Below, piece after piece: positions 1-27,981 of a DNA stretch of 64,000 nucleotides. Below the pieces are notes generated by a model. It saw only the letters and a program-made list of their open reading frames with translations. It was not told the origin of the DNA and ran no database searches. The stretch comes from Tsuneonella amylolytica (GTDB taxonomy: Bacteria; Pseudomonadota; Alphaproteobacteria; Sphingomonadales; Sphingomonadaceae): NCBI RefSeq assembly GCF_003626915.1, contig NZ_CP032570.1, positions 2,665,001-2,729,000 of the forward strand, in the 5' to 3' direction. A program made the position numbers and the translations under genes. The stretch's first letter is position 1, and every line of letters starts with the position of its first letter.

Positions 1-1
1 G

Positions 2-1771
2 AAGCTTCCGACGTCGTCGATGATCGACGGCAAAAAGCGGAAATCCATCTCCGCCTTGCTCGCGGAGACGGATCGCGAGACCGAATACTATCGGCCCGAC
101 TTTTCCATACGAGCTGACACCATCCCGATGTATTCGTACATCGATGTCCTGCGGGGCAAGGTCGATCGGGCAGACATAGCCGGCCGCGATATAATCGTCG
201 CTCCAGCAAATCTTACCTCGCCCGACCGCTATTACATGCAACTCATCGACTCGATCCTCGGATCGCAAATCCATGCCATCGGTGCACAGACCCTCAGGGA
301 GCGCTTTCCGATCGACCTCGGATGGTTGCCGGGGTTCATCATCGCTGGCGCATTTGTCGTCTGGCAGTCCCGGCAGAAACTGCGCACTCGCAAAAGCTCT
401 GCGCTCGTAATCGGTTTGCTCGCGGCTGCGCCCTTCGCTGCGGACCTGGCGAACATCAACTTCGAGGTGATGCCGGGGTTGGTGTGCATGTTGTATGGCT
501 CGATCCGCCATGCCAGCCTCGTCCGCCGGACATATCGCGGCGACACGCACTTGCTTCGCATCGAGCAGTTGCATTCCGCCCGCCACGAAGCCGATTGCGA
601 TGTCATCGCCCTGAAGCTTCGCAATTTCGCGACGATCAGCACGATCCTGTCTCCGAAGGAAATCGAAACCCTGCTGGAAAAAGTGCAGGGGATGCTGAAA
701 GCGGCGGAAGGAAGCGCGCAGCTCGCATTCGACCGGGATACGATCGTCTGGTTGCGTCCGGCATTGCGCCGTGACGAGCGGGAGGATCACTTGCGCGGTC
801 TTCATGCCCTTTTCCGGACGAGCATTCCGGTCGGTAATCAGATGCCCGCCGTCGCCACCGCAGCAGGCCTGGATGCCAATTACGAGTTGCCGTTGCGCGA
901 ACGCATCGAAGGGGCAATCCAGAATGCCGAAGACGCCTCGACCCACGGCAAACTGTTTATAATCGGCGAAGGCGAGGCAGGGGAGGACCGGGCCTGGCGG
1001 TTGGGGTTCTTCGCCGAGTTGACCAATGCGATGGACACCGGCGACATCGAGGTGCGGTTTCAGCCGAAGGTCCGTCTCGCTACCGGAGAGATAGTGGGAG
1101 CAGAAGCACTTCTGCGCTGGAACCACCCCACGCGGGGCGCGATCGATCCGACGGAAATCGTTTCGTTCGCCGAAGACCACAACCGCATCGATGTGGTGAC
1201 ACGATACGTCCTCGACCAATCGCTTTCGCAGGCGAAGGCGGCAATCGCGCGCGATCCGGCATTCAAGATCGCCGTCAATGTGTCGGCACTGGACCTGCGC
1301 GATCCGGGGTTTGCGCGCGATGTCGCCAAGCGGCTGCGGATTCACGACTTCCCCGCAAGCAATCTAATCCTTGAGATTACCGAAACTGCACCGATCGACA
1401 GCAACGTGACGGCCAGTTCGGTTCTTCTAGAACTGAAACGTATGGGCGTTCGCCTGTCCGTGGACGATTTCGGAACCGGACATGCGTCGCTCCACTATTT
1501 GCGGCAGATCCCCAGTCACGAGGTCAAGATCGACCGAAGCTTCATATCGGGCATGATCGATTCTACCGAAGATCGGGCGCTGGTGAAGACCGCGATCGAC
1601 ATGATCCATTCGTTGGGACGGCTTGCCGTCGCGGAAGGGGTCGAGACGCAGGAAGTTGTCGACGCGCTCGTCGAACTCGGTTGCGACAAGGGACAGGGAT
1701 ATTTCTTTTCGCGCGCCGTTCCGATGGCCGAACTGCTGCCGAAGCTAAGCAGAGGGGCGCTCGCGGCCTAG
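2..1771 (+). CDS. CHASE2 / degenerate GGDEF / EAL cyclic-di-GMP phosphodiesterase (5' partial)
   Basis: The C-terminal EAL domain should hydrolyse cyclic di-GMP. Residues below are counted from the first in-window ATG at 20, but the frame stays open to the window edge, so the real start lies upstream. Residues 1-100 look like the end of an extracytoplasmic CHASE2 sensor, followed by about three hydrophobic segments (about 102-170). A middle region (about 190-310) has GGDEF-like length but no GGDEF signature. The EAL domain (about 335-575) keeps the expected residues: EALLRW with Glu at about 362, NVSALDL, EITET, DDFGTG, VKIDRSF and EGVET. This suggests an active phosphodiesterase with a dead cyclase module, anchored in the inner membrane. 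A PilZ protein at 50.1-50.7 kb is a possible effector of the same messenger, though not a neighbour. Confidence 0.88.
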   Translation, partial: KLPTSSMIDGKKRKSISALLAETDRETEYYRPDFSIRADTIPMYSYIDVLRGKVDRADIAGRDIIVAPANLTSPDRYYMQLIDSILGSQIHAIGAQTLRERFPIDLGWLPGFIIAGAFVVWQSRQKLRTRKSSALVIGLLAAAPFAADLANINFEVMPGLVCMLYGSIRHASLVRRTYRGDTHLLRIEQLHSARHEADCDVIALKLRNFATISTILSPKEIETLLEKVQGMLKAAEGSAQLAFDRDTIVWLRPALRRDEREDHLRGLHALFRTSIPVGNQMPAVATAAGLDANYELPLRERIEGAIQNAEDASTHGKLFIIGEGEAGEDRAWRLGFFAELTNAMDTGDIEVRFQPKVRLATGEIVGAEALLRWNHPTRGAIDPTEIVSFAEDHNRIDVVTRYVLDQSLSQAKAAIARDPAFKIAVNVSALDLRDPGFARDVAKRLRIHDFPASNLILEITETAPIDSNVTASSVLLELKRMGVRLSVDDFGTGHASLHYLRQIPSHEVKIDRSFISGMIDSTEDRALVKTAIDMIHSLGRLAVAEGVETQEVVDALVELGCDKGQGYFFSRAVPMAELLPKLSRGALAA

Positions 1772-1774
1772 GAC

Positions 1775-1803
1775 TTGCAAAGTGTTTACGACCTGTTAAC
1801 TAT
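1775..1803 (+). promoter_or_regulatory. Candidate sigma-70-type promoter of the 14-codon transcription unit
   Basis: TTGCAA (1775-1780), a 17-bp spacer and AACTAT (1798-1803) lie immediately after the EAL gene stop. Predicted transcription would start near 1810 and reach the terminator at 1905-1933, giving an RNA of about 125 nt. This is consensus matching only. Confidence 0.5.
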
Positions 1804-1841
1804 CCCTGTTAGCACATGGGGTGCGCAACAGGAGATTTACC

Positions 1842-1886
1842 ATGTCCATTTGGAACTGGTTTGATCGAGTTCTCGGCGGTCGTTGA
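1842..1886 (+). CDS. 14-residue micro-ORF (MSIWNWFDRVLGGR)
   Basis: A very short ORF with an AGGAG Shine-Dalgarno at 1830-1834, seven bases before the ATG. It sits between a promoter-like sequence and a perfect intrinsic terminator, so it looks like a self-contained microprotein gene or a small RNA that carries a leader peptide. The peptide is Trp/Phe-rich at one end and basic at the other, which would suit a short amphipathic membrane-surface helix. I do not recognise the family. It cannot be a leader for mfd, which is convergent. Alternatively the RNA itself is functional and the ORF is chance. Confidence 0.45.
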   Translation: MSIWNWFDRVLGGR

Positions 1887-1904
1887 TCACCTGATCGGCG
1901 CTGC

Positions 1905-1933
1905 AAAAAGCCCCGGCAATGCCGGGGCTTTTT
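1905..1933. terminator. Bidirectional intrinsic terminator between the micro-ORF and mfd
   Basis: A perfect GCCCCGGC / GCCGGGGC stem with an AAT loop is flanked by five A on the left and five T on the right. It therefore terminates both the rightward micro-ORF transcript and leftward mfd. Confidence 0.9.
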
Positions 1934-1958
1934 ATTTGTCCGGCGTATACGTGCGTGG

Positions 1959-4900
1959 TCACGCAGGCGCCCTGGCCTTCTCCGCGCGATCGACGATGCC
2001 GCTCAAGCCCTTGGTTAATTGAAATAAACCATTGAGCCGGGACTGCGGATCGTTCCAAGGGCGGGCCAGCGACAGCTTCATGTCGGGGCGCAGTTTCGCG
2101 CTTTCTCCCACCCGTCCGATCCATGCCAGCAGGCCCGCCGGATCCGGGAACTGGTCACGGTGGAAGGTCACCAAAGTGCCGCGTGCTCCCACGTCGATTC
2201 GCGCGATGTTGGCGCGAATCGCCTGATTCTTGATCTCGATCAGCTTGACCAGATTCGCCGCAGGGGCGGGCAGGGGGCCGAACCGGTCGATCATTTCGGC
2301 GGCCAGCGCCTCGATCTCGCCCTTGTCCTTCGCGTCGTTGAGGCGGCGGTATAGTCCCATGCGGACCGCCAGGTCGGGTACGTACTCCTCCGGGATCGAG
2401 ATCGGCGCATCGACGGTGATCTGCGGCGACGGGCCCGCCTCGCGCTCCAGCCCCATGTCGCCCGCCTTGGCCGCCAGGATCGCGTCCTCCAGCATCGACT
2501 GGTAGAGTTCGAAACCGACCTCGCGGATGTGGCCGGACTGCTCGTCGCCCAGCAGGTTGCCCGCGCCGCGGATGTCGAGATCGTGGCTGGCGAGCTGGAA
2601 GCCGGCCCCCAGGCTGTCGAGATCGCCGAGCACCTTCAGGCGCTTCTCCGCGACCTCGCTCAACGCGGTGTCGGCGGGTGTGGTGAGATACGCGTAGGCG
2701 CGCACCTTCGACCGACCGACGCGACCGCGCAATTGGTAGAGCTGGGCGAGACCGAAGCGGTCCGCCCGGTGGATCACGATCGTGTTGGCGCTCGGAATGT
2801 CGAGCCCGCTTTCCACGATCGTCGTCGACAGCAGGACCTCGTACTTGCCGTCGTAGAACGCGCTCATCCGCTCCTCGACCTCGGTCGGCGACATCTGACC
2901 GTGCGCGCTGATCGACTTCACCTCCGGTACGTGTTTCGCCAGCCATTCCTCGATCTCGGGCATGTCGGCGATGCGTGGGACGACGATGAAGCTCTGCCCG
3001 CCGCGGTGATGTTCGCGCAGCAGCGCCTCGCGCATCACCATGTCGTCCCATTCCATCACGTAGGTCCGCACCGCCAGGCGGTCGACCGGCGGGGTCTGGA
3101 TAGTGGACAGCTCACGCAAGCCGCTCATCGCCATCTGCAGCGTGCGGGGAATGGGCGTGGCGGTGAGCGTGAGGACGTGGACGTCGGCGCGCAGCTGCTT
3201 GAGCTTTTCCTTGTGGGTGACGCCGAAGCGCTGTTCCTCGTCCACGATCACGAGACCGAGGTTCTTGAACTCGGTCGATTTCGACAGGATCGCGTGGGTC
3301 CCGACGACGACGTCGATGTCGCCCGACTTGAGGCCGGCGCGGGTTTCGCCGCTTTCCTTCGCTCCGACCAGCCGGCTGAGCCGCCCGACCTTGAGCGGGA
3401 AGCCGGAAAAGCGCGCGGCGAAGTTCTCGTAATGTTGGCGCGCGAGAAGCGTCGTCGGTGCGACGACCGCGACCTGCCGCCCGCTCATCGCGGTGGCGAA
3501 TGCGGCGCGCAGCGCGACCTCTGTCTTGCCGAAGCCGACATCGCCGCAGACCAGCCGGTCCATCGGCTTGCCGCTGGCGAGATCCTCCAGCACTTCGTCG
3601 ATCGCGCGGTCCTGGTCATCGGTTTCCTGCCACGGGAAGCGGTCGACGAACTGGTCGAAGCTTGCGCTTTCGGTTTCCACCACCGCGGCCTTGCGGAGCG
3701 AACGGGCCGCCGCCGTGCGAAGGAGTTCGTGCGCGATCTCGCGGATGCGCTCCTTCAGCCGGCTGCGGCGGCGCTGCCACGATTCACCTCCCAGCCGGTC
3801 GAGCGGCACGGCCTGCTCGCTGCTGCCGTATCGGCTCAGGACCTCGAGATTCTCGACAGGGACGTAGAGCTTGTCGCCCCCGGCATATTCCAGCATCACG
3901 CAGTCGTGCTGGCTCTTGCCAACCGGGATCGGTTCGAGGCCCAGGTACTTGCCGATGCCGTGGTCCAGGTGGACGACGAGATCGCCGGCATTCAGCGCCT
4001 GCAGTTCGGCGAGAAAGGCATCGGCGCTCTTGCGCTTCTTCTTGCGCCGGACGAGCCGGTCGCCGAGCACGTCGGCTTCGGTAATGAGGTCGATGTCGTC
4101 GTTCGCGAAGCCGGACTCGAGCGGGAGGACGAGCGCCACGGGCTTGCCCCCACCCGACTTGTTTGGCGCGCTCAGCCCGAGCGCTTCCTGCCAGGTATCG
4201 GCCAGTTCCATCGGCGCGCCCGCTTCCCCCACGATCGAGGCGATGCGCGCGCGGCTGCCCTTGGAATAAGTCGCGAGAAGGGGGCGCTTGCCGGCTTTCG
4301 AAACCGTCTTCAGGTGATCGGCGGTGGCGGCATAGACGTTGTCACCGCGGGTGCGTTCGGGGGCGAAATCGCGGCCTGAGCGGAAACCGAAGTCGACGAC
4401 GCCCGCCCCTTCCGGCTCGGCGAAGATCGACGCCCGGTGCATCGGCAGGCCGGCGAGGGCGGCGTCGAATTCGCCTTTCGACAGGTAAAGCGCATCCTCG
4501 GGCAGCGGACGGTAGGTGCCGTCCTCGCGCTGGCGATGGTAGTCGGCGATGTCCGTCAGCCGCTCGTCCGCCGCGCCGATGGCGGCGGCGTCGATGACGA
4601 CTATGTCGCCGCCCGACAGGTGATCGAACAGGGTCGCCATCCGGTCCTCGAACAGCGGTAGCCAGTGTTCCATGCCCGCCAGCCGCCGCCCGTCGCTCAC
4701 CGCCTGGTAGAGGGGGTCCTGCGTGGCGTTGGCGCCGAACATCTCGCGGTAGCGCGTGCGGAACCGCTTGATCGTGTCCTCGCCCAACAACGCCTCGCTG
4801 GCTGGCAGCAGCAGGTGACGGTCGATCACCCCGGTCGTCATCTGCGTGGTCGGATCGAACAGGCGCAGCGATTCGAGCTCGTCGCCGAAGAAATCGAGCC

Positions 4901-5441
4901 GCAGGCCGGCTTCGAGGCCGCTGGGGAAGAGGTCGAAGATCGAGCCGCGCACCGCGAACTCGCCGTGATCGATGACGGTGTCGGTGCGGCCGTAGCCCTG
5001 CCGCTGAAGCAGCGCGATGAGCGAATCATGGCCGATCTCCATTCCCGGCTTCAGCTCGCGCACCGCTTCGCGCACGCGGAACGGGGTGAGCACGCGCTGG
5101 AGCAGCGCATTGACGGTGGTGACGAGCAGCTGGCTCCCCGTCTTTCCGGCCTGCAACCGGTGGAGCGCCGCCAGCCGCCGTGCGCTGACCGACAGGGCAG
5201 GACTGGCGCGGTCGTAGGGGAGGCAGTCCCACGCGGGAAACTCGATCACCTCGAGTTCGGGCGCGAAGAACCGAGCCGCTTCGGCCACCGCGCTCATCCC
5301 CGCATCGTCGGGCGCGACGAACACCGCCCGTCCGTTCGCAGCTCGTGCGAGGTCGGCCATCACCAGCGGCTGTGCGCCGCGCGGGATCGAGGCGAGCGTC
5401 AGCGGCGCGGTGGCGGACAGGATCTTCTGAAGGTCGGGCAT
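1959..5441 (-). CDS. mfd: Transcription-repair coupling factor Mfd
   Basis: Mfd removes RNA polymerase stalled at lesions and recruits UvrA for transcription-coupled nucleotide excision repair. The 1160-residue length matches the family (E. coli 1148). The N-terminus is UvrB-like. An RNA-polymerase-interacting CarD-like domain lies at about 480-580 (GDLVVHLDHGIGKY). The RecG-like translocase core has Walker A GDVGFGKT at about 635, DEEQRFG at about 734 and a helicase C lobe with QLRGRVGR, then a TRCF C-terminal domain. I chose the ATG at 5441, which starts MPDLQKIL and has AGGAAA upstream; the frame runs 38 codons further up without family resemblance. The gene lies downstream of sdhE on the same strand. 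Confidence 0.98.
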   Translation of the reverse strand: MPDLQKILSATAPLTLASIPRGAQPLVMADLARAANGRAVFVAPDDAGMSAVAEAARFFAPELEVIEFPAWDCLPYDRASPALSVSARRLAALHRLQAGKTGSQLLVTTVNALLQRVLTPFRVREAVRELKPGMEIGHDSLIALLQRQGYGRTDTVIDHGEFAVRGSIFDLFPSGLEAGLRLDFFGDELESLRLFDPTTQMTTGVIDRHLLLPASEALLGEDTIKRFRTRYREMFGANATQDPLYQAVSDGRRLAGMEHWLPLFEDRMATLFDHLSGGDIVVIDAAAIGAADERLTDIADYHRQREDGTYRPLPEDALYLSKGEFDAALAGLPMHRASIFAEPEGAGVVDFGFRSGRDFAPERTRGDNVYAATADHLKTVSKAGKRPLLATYSKGSRARIASIVGEAGAPMELADTWQEALGLSAPNKSGGGKPVALVLPLESGFANDDIDLITEADVLGDRLVRRKKKRKSADAFLAELQALNAGDLVVHLDHGIGKYLGLEPIPVGKSQHDCVMLEYAGGDKLYVPVENLEVLSRYGSSEQAVPLDRLGGESWQRRRSRLKERIREIAHELLRTAAARSLRKAAVVETESASFDQFVDRFPWQETDDQDRAIDEVLEDLASGKPMDRLVCGDVGFGKTEVALRAAFATAMSGRQVAVVAPTTLLARQHYENFAARFSGFPLKVGRLSRLVGAKESGETRAGLKSGDIDVVVGTHAILSKSTEFKNLGLVIVDEEQRFGVTHKEKLKQLRADVHVLTLTATPIPRTLQMAMSGLRELSTIQTPPVDRLAVRTYVMEWDDMVMREALLREHHRGGQSFIVVPRIADMPEIEEWLAKHVPEVKSISAHGQMSPTEVEERMSAFYDGKYEVLLSTTIVESGLDIPSANTIVIHRADRFGLAQLYQLRGRVGRSKVRAYAYLTTPADTALSEVAEKRLKVLGDLDSLGAGFQLASHDLDIRGAGNLLGDEQSGHIREVGFELYQSMLEDAILAAKAGDMGLEREAGPSPQITVDAPISIPEEYVPDLAVRMGLYRRLNDAKDKGEIEALAAEMIDRFGPLPAPAANLVKLIEIKNQAIRANIARIDVGARGTLVTFHRDQFPDPAGLLAWIGRVGESAKLRPDMKLSLARPWNDPQSRLNGLFQLTKGLSGIVDRAEKARAPA

Positions 5442-5570
5442 CGGGTTTCCTGTCTCGGTTCGCGTATCGCGGGCACGCGCGGCGGCCCCGTCCGGCGATT
5501 TTTCCGGGCGGGGCGGGGAGTTGGGTTCAGATAAGCCGAACGCCCGGCCGGGCAAGGCGTTTCCGGCGCG

Positions 5571-15857: not shown

Positions 15858-15998
15858 CGAATGTGGCGGAACCACCATGGGTCGTTTGCTGCTGATATCC
15901 TCCGACGCCTCAACGTCAGGTGGGAACCGTGTACCCCGGTTTCCTGGACGAACCAGGGCCCCAGGGCAGGGACAGCTCCCGAGGATTGCTTATAGCCC
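15842..15998 (-). ncRNA. ssrS: 6S RNA (SsrS), approximate ends
   Basis: 6S RNA binds sigma-70 RNA polymerase as a promoter mimic. The position between zapA and 5-FCL, on their strand, is where 6S lies across proteobacteria. The minus-strand RNA can form a closing stem (AATCCTC near the 5' end with GAGGATA near the 3' end), an internal region, and an apical hairpin CCTGG-TTCGT-CCAGG. The 5' end is placed about six bases after the -10; the 3' end could lie anywhere between about 15840 and 15880. The RNA overlaps the longest versions of the 5-FCL frame. Confidence 0.65.
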
Positions 15999-16003
15999 CG
16001 GGG

Positions 16004-16009
16004 ATTATG
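16004..16009 (-). promoter_or_regulatory. -10 element of the 6S RNA promoter
   Basis: On the minus strand CATAAT precedes the predicted 6S start by about six bases. The -35 region (GACTGC-like) is a weak match, so zapA readthrough may also contribute. Confidence 0.4.
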
Positions 16010-16046
16010 TAGCGTGCTCGTGCCGGGCAGTCCCGCCACGCCCTAT

Positions 16047-27896: not shown

Positions 27897-27981
27897 GCCC
27901 CTGTGGTGGAATTGGTAGACGCGCTCGACTCAAAATCGAGTTCCGAAAGGAGTGCCCGTTCGAGCCGGGCCAGGGGCACCA
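27897..27981 (+). tRNA. tRNA-Leu (anticodon CAA)
   Basis: Acceptor GCCCCTG/CAGGGGC, anticodon stem CTCGA/TCGAG with loop CTCAAAA (anticodon CAA), a long variable arm, and T loop TTCGAGC. CCA is encoded at 27979-27981. It reads TTG codons. Confidence 0.96.

Follow-up and report, generated by a model that had tools for sequence, protein, structure and literature searches.

Between the 3′ end of a gene for a CHASE2-EAL phosphodiesterase and the convergent mfd gene of Tsuneonella amylolytica lies a unit of about 160 bp that raises a simple question: is it a gene in its own right, and if so, does it act through a peptide or through an RNA? We addressed this question in a window of 64,000 nucleotides (the whole stretch of DNA analysed here) and in relatives from the same genus, family, order and class. 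An earlier note on the window had described a promoter (TTGCAA-N17-AACTAT, with the last six bases at 1798–1803), an AGGAG, a short ORF and a perfect intrinsic terminator, and each of these elements is present where it was placed (Table 1). We favour the reading that the unit is an EAL-linked microprotein gene with its own CtrA-type promoter, a block on translation from read-through RNA, and a membrane peptide as its product that tunes the phosphodiesterase; to this model as a whole we assign a probability of about 0.7.

Table 1. Annotated and predicted features of the micro-ORF unit and its neighbours, in window coordinates (SD: Shine-Dalgarno sequence).
Feature	Position	Strand	Basis
CHASE2-EAL phosphodiesterase gene (start upstream of window; stop TAG 1769–1771)	1–1771	+	ORF list
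−35 element TTGCAA	1775–1780	+	Conservation in same-genus loci
CtrA-type box TTTA-N7-TTAA, one mismatch	1785–1799	+	Box counts and registers across leaders
−10 element TAACTA, extended TG at 1794–1795	1797–1802	+	Promoter fit over 86 units; TANNNN rule (PMC7566282)
Anti-SD arm ATCCCTGTT, includes discriminator 1803–1808	1802–1810	+	Folds; SD-discriminator pairing against three controls
Inner stem of leader hairpin, GCAC (1812–1815) with GTGC (1821–1824)	1812–1824	+	Folds
SD AGGAG, inside hairpin 3′ arm (1827–1836)	1830–1834	+	Sequence, fold
Micro-ORF MSIWNWFDRVLGGR, 14 codons + TGA, ATG at 1842	1842–1886	+	Conservation, pN/pS
Intrinsic terminator AAAAAGCCCCGGC-AAT-GCCGGGGCTTTTT, 8-bp GC stem, A5/T5 flanks	1905–1933	+	Sequence
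mfd (convergent with the unit)	1959–5555	−	ORF list

In locus L157, where the EAL gene is complete, the full protein has 789 aa and carries the Pfam domains CHASE2 and EAL. Promoter, ORF and terminator of the small unit beside it had all been called good in the earlier note, but the promoter is weak on its own and was not listed by an E. coli-style promoter scan. The earlier claim that the sequence has no other explanation goes too far in the case of the terminator, a bidirectional palindrome at which the EAL and mfd transcripts probably end as well, so that it would not by itself mark a separate gene. The unit stands beyond chance because its parts recur across relatives and its substitutions are of the coding type.

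A short Trp-containing ORF followed by a terminator also brings to mind a trpL-type leader peptide and attenuator, for which the rhizobial peTrpL offers a parallel. However, mfd converges on the unit and no co-directional gene lies downstream, there is no run of Trp codons, and only a single Trp is invariant among the peptides. We therefore rejected this explanation as extremely improbable.

Recurrence of the unit beside the EAL gene

Within the genus of the window, 8 of 11 genomes contain an EAL ortholog, and in all eight loci this gene is immediately followed on its 3′ side by a promoter, SD, ORF and terminator. The −35 TTGCAA is kept in five of the seven other loci, with TTGCAT and TTGCCA as variants and a loss in G006. 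The eight peptides are MSIWNWFDRVLGGR, MSIFVASIWEWVEWFLGGR, MSIWGYVTWFLGGR, MSIWKFWNDVFGGR, MWAWFRDVWGGR, MLFKLTVGIWDWMTELFGGR, MSFWEWFENCFGGR and MSIWSGWRALFGGN. Their indels comprise whole codons and the stop alternates between TGA and TAA. The frame, the first core Trp codon and the terminal Gly-Gly-Arg are conserved apart from a single change of Arg to Asn, and the wobble positions of Gly-Gly-Arg vary. A covariance model of the unit detected nothing in G001, G003 and G004, the three genus genomes without an EAL ortholog; gene and unit are thus jointly absent there. Beyond the genus, this model had matches in two further genera only. In the alignment behind model R1, two rows were shortened by their inserted codons.

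At a cut-off of E below 1e-75, 99 of 398 genomes of the family, Sphingomonadaceae, had an EAL ortholog, many having no match at this cut-off, and we read the 3′ flanks of 90 orthologs (the 8 genus loci, 22 and 60). A micro-ORF lies beside the EAL ortholog in 84 of these 90 loci, three of the 84 having been found only on a second look. No recognisable micro-ORF is present in the flanks read for the other six (L085, L104, L118, L124, L127, L151), and whether it was lost, moved or diverged past our filter is unresolved. That filter let through only ORFs with one or more Trp and with an SD-like stretch, so the counts of these two features are not independent evidence. In L096 and L122 the unit sits on the strand opposite the EAL gene with the adjacency retained, which argues that it is not merely the 3′ UTR of that gene. 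A chance ORF can be rejected, given this recurrence together with coding-type substitution (see below); a plasmid-borne element was rejected as well.

We also searched without regard to position, with a profile built from 53 peptides and the whole genomes of 298 members of the order as target. One match each was obtained in 46 genomes, and for every one of the best 30 of these 46, tblastn placed an EAL homolog no more than 1.5 kb away; 10 of the 30 come from genomes outside the profile (L169, L170, L172, L174, L178, L180, L182, L183, L185, L186). Against 240 genomes across the class, the profile found nothing convincing: its four matches were weak (E 0.0017–0.006), three fell inside long frames, and we take all four to be chance. 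A pattern search allowing 3 mismatches was too strict, matching 3 of 299 genomes, one of these by chance and without a recognised unit, and plain blastn of the unit returned mostly unrelated terminators. The linkage to EAL holds at partner identities of 31–58% and despite a changed gene beyond the unit. The 30 orthologs checked retain the EAL, DD(F/Y)G and AEG(V/I)E motifs, with a few variants such as ETL in L075.

The peptide and its coding evolution

All 86 collected units start with ATG, and their peptides have 11–41 residues (median 24) with a mean net charge of +2.3. They are Trp-rich and mostly basic. Their Trp/Phe core takes the form FW-x-W-L..GG or a variant of it, the end is Gly-rich, and the N-terminus is often basic. 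Beyond the branch of the window the peptides are longer and the core is clearer, as in MAKRTKQPVRGFWDWLLGGGWSN, MTGHVRGTSHQPVRWDIWDWLLGGGQWR and MWAWIFGGGYWR. Aligned with one another, they have one invariant Trp, bearing in mind that Trp was a requirement of the filter, and one nearly invariant Gly.

Substitutions in the micro-ORF follow the coding type throughout. The pN/pS ratio lies between 0.12 and 0.65 in 13 of 13 genera (Nei-Gojobori; means pN 0.16, pS 0.45), and for pairs of equal length it is 0.44 in the true frame, compared with 1.08 and 1.70 in the shifted frames. The earlier note had offered a microprotein or an abundant small RNA, and codon-level conservation in close relatives, a check which it had proposed for the microprotein, was accordingly passed: frame, Trp and Gly-Gly-Arg are kept, wobble positions vary and pN/pS is below 1. 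Indels in multiples of three and coding-type substitution in all 13 genera support the same reading. From this mode of evolution, and in the absence of RNA, ribosome or peptide data, we regard it as close to certain that the unit is a microprotein gene.

Could the functional product instead be a small RNA, made at the EAL gene's 3′ end from the unit's own promoter to the shared terminator, that base-pairs with target mRNAs, the ORF being secondary or one half of a dual function? The compact unit, its structured leader, its strong terminator and the very stable fold of the whole (z −4.0) would all suit such an RNA. Yet substitution is of the coding type in 13 genera, the peptide core is the part most constant across genera while leader and spacer diverge, and the unit has no Rfam match at the gathering threshold, on which ground a known Rfam small RNA was rejected. 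A small RNA therefore seems quite unlikely to be the main product, although a dual role is not excluded. Elsewhere in the window, Rfam places a 6S RNA at 15865–16036 on the minus strand (63.5 bits), and a tRNA match at 27902–27972 on the plus strand barely exceeds the threshold (29.2 vs 29 bits) and is possibly a degenerate tRNA or chance.

Four longer members of the peptide family had no Pfam or NCBIfam match up to E = 1; the 14-residue peptide of the window is too short for such a scan. A partial literature search, which is weak evidence, found no description of the family. It is apparently undescribed, and some annotation may list its longer members as hypothetical proteins.

Predicted promoter, CtrA-type box and leader hairpin

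Promoters measured in the sphingomonad Zymomonas follow the rule TTGNNN, 17 nt, TANNNN, with a last T that is not conserved and a usual discriminator of 6 nt (PMC7566282). By this rule the promoter of the window is TTGCAA-N16-TAACTA with an extended TG, and its predicted start lies at about 1808–1811. The −35 is that of the promoter proposed earlier; the −10 proposed with it was one base off the better one. Across the collection, 78 of 86 units have a sigma70-type promoter score that exceeds the mean for shuffles (p = 7e-14), and the −10 usually ends 35–55 nt before the ATG. At the other end of the unit, an intrinsic terminator follows within 90 nt of the micro-ORF stop, likewise in 78 of 86. 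The promoter fits strongly indicate that the unit has a sigma70-type promoter of its own, which has not been measured.

A CtrA box (TTAA-N7-TTAA with at most one mismatch) is found in 63 of 85 leaders, compared with 6.8 in shuffles. It occupies a register of about −43, over the −35, in some 35 units, and one of −24, over the −10, in 21 units, most of the genus of the window among them. The leaders of L075, L077 and L078 carry the box in both registers, which suggests that it shifted step-wise as the promoter evolved. The position over the −35 is the usual activating one for CtrA; in the genus of the window, activation and repression cannot be told apart because the box covers the −10. Given that the boxes are enriched at fixed registers and that the CckA-ChpT-CtrA relay is conserved in Sphingomonadales (PMC2877005), control of the unit by CtrA is likely, though no binding data support it. 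Production of the peptide would then probably be tied to the CtrA (cell-cycle) programme. In Sphingomonas melonis, a strain deleted for ctrA is reported to be viable (PMC8116508). The leaders are mildly enriched in GANTC, the CcrM methylation site (19/85 vs 10.4 in shuffles).

Absent from the earlier note is a leader hairpin that pairs with the SD. In the window, ATCCCTGTT is predicted to pair with AACAGG-A-GAT of the 3′ arm, and an RNA from the predicted start would lack the CCC covering the SD. Compared with shuffled sequences, leaders have a more stable fold (−21.7 vs −15.7 kcal/mol) and a less exposed SD (unpaired 0.26 vs 0.39; p = 1e-7), and the pairing partners of the SD cluster in the six bases between the −10 and the predicted +1. 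Mean SD-discriminator pairing is 0.43. Three controls give lower values: 0.08 for shuffled leaders (p = 3e-9), 0.28 for discriminators exchanged among units (p = 9e-4) and 0.29 for discriminators with permuted letters (p = 2e-6). Examples are CTGTCTCC/GGAGACAG (L183), CTTCTTGTTG/CAACAGGAGG (L185) and TTCCCCTTGTCGC/GTGACAAGGGGAA (L148). About 60% of the units, including those of the genus of the window, carry an anti-SD in the discriminator, while about 40% have no such pairing. Base-pair covariation was not detected in the genus alignment, so the claim of a hairpin rests on the cross-genus controls.

What would this pairing do? In 84 of 86 units we saw no terminator on the way from the upstream gene to the unit, so read-through is to be expected. 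Transcripts that run on from the EAL gene would include the anti-SD arm, and their SD would be buried; the short mRNA from the unit's own promoter, about 125 nt long, would by contrast begin within this arm or directly behind it and would be translatable. Consistent with this scheme, the predicted accessibility of the SD is 0.35 for an RNA starting right after the −10 and 0.58 for one starting at +1. We regard it as probable that the SD is masked in read-through RNA and free in the own transcript, with the caveats that the starts are predicted and that repression is unmeasured. The inverted unit L096 keeps the SD-pairing hairpin, though EAL read-through cannot produce it there, and the inverted unit L122 does not keep it.

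Starts that lie a few bases upstream of the prediction would mask the SD in the unit's own transcript too. The hairpin could then be a regulated translation switch, responding for instance to temperature or to a trans-acting RNA, and not a block on read-through. This is compatible with hairpin stability above chance and with starts that are predicted but unmapped, and L185 and L186 have an ill-defined promoter and an arm that may be part of the transcript. It fits less well with the concentration of SD partners in the six bases after the −10, and the 6-nt discriminator that is usual in a relative (PMC7566282) places the arm upstream of +1. We consider a switch of this kind unlikely and retain the block on read-through as the preferred role of the hairpin.

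Proposed function and comparison with known systems

A linkage that outlasts inversion, a change of neighbour and partner identities of 31–58% suggests that the peptide and the EAL enzyme share a task. From their Trp/Phe core, Gly-rich end and basic N-terminus we infer a resemblance to membrane-surface peptides. Linkage and composition together favour a membrane-associated modulator of the phosphodiesterase; another role of the peptide, a base-pairing RNA and a dual role remain. In the model that we favour, the Trp-rich peptide would act at the inner membrane on the neighbouring CHASE2-EAL enzyme, and it would by inference couple local c-di-GMP breakdown to the CtrA programme. That the phosphodiesterase is the partner has gene neighbourhood as its only basis, and we rate it slightly short of an even bet.

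Neighbourhood is likewise all that connects the two if the peptide is translated for a role unrelated to the enzyme, for instance as a general peptide of the membrane or envelope, as a signal or as a toxin-like product, and the linkage is merely inherited gene order; a Trp-rich, basic composition also suits a general membrane-active peptide. This reading has to contend with a linkage kept at EAL identities down to 31–35% and with a changed gene beyond the unit, with the survival of the linkage in the two inverted units, and with the three genus genomes that lack both EAL ortholog and unit. It is on the unlikely side without being far-fetched, and modulation of the phosphodiesterase remains our preferred reading. 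The most specific version of it, in which a new family directly controls one CHASE2-EAL phosphodiesterase under CtrA, with an anti-SD in the discriminator as a cellular counterpart of T4 gene e, is doubtful at present.

If it is true, six discriminator bases both position the transcription start and block translation of read-through RNA. This would account for the lack of expression, from read-through RNA, of a gene lodged at the 3′ end of its neighbour. As a sequence rule, an anti-SD within the discriminator is simple enough to be looked for genome-wide. ORFs of 11–41 codons easily escape gene finders, and the micro-ORF is retained in nearly every genome with the EAL enzyme. The unit offers a concrete candidate partner, promoter and phenotype for testing.

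Some small RNAs, such as E. coli MicL, arise from the 3′ ends of genes by means of their own promoter. The unit resembles them in a promoter placed just 3′ of a coding gene, a shared terminator and an RNA of about 125 nt, but differs in its conserved ORF under purifying selection and in lacking an Rfam match. KdpF, MgtS and AcrZ are examples of small proteins of the membrane that modulate an enzyme, either a neighbour or a partner. Like them, the peptide is very short, presumed to be membrane-associated and genetically tied to a membrane protein; unlike them, it has no sequence relation to the three and no binding data, and judging from its length it probably lies on the membrane surface and is not transmembrane. 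With the leader peptides peTrpL/rnTrpL of Sinorhizobium (PMC7298713), the unit shares a 14-codon Trp-containing ORF, a strong terminator and an alphaproteobacterial host. It differs in having neither a downstream operon nor consecutive Trp codons, and it is linked to an EAL gene, not to trpE.

In its inferred mechanism the unit resembles genes of phage T4. Long early transcripts of gene e hide the SD, and the late promoters lie in the region that encodes the 5′ strand of the helix (PMC3014915); for e, soc and I-TevI alike, the SD is masked in read-through RNA and free in RNA from the promoter within the 5′ strand of the hairpin (PMC3014915, PMC2988022). As in gene e, the 5′ arm that would mask the SD of our unit falls within the promoter region, immediately ahead of the predicted start, and the upstream gene is expected to read through. 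Unlike gene e, the unit is a cellular gene of 11–41 codons with a sigma70/CtrA-type promoter, and its arm is confined to a 6-nt discriminator. The principle of masking is thus known from T4; what looks like a new form of it is an arm that sits in the discriminator of a microprotein gene conserved in cells.
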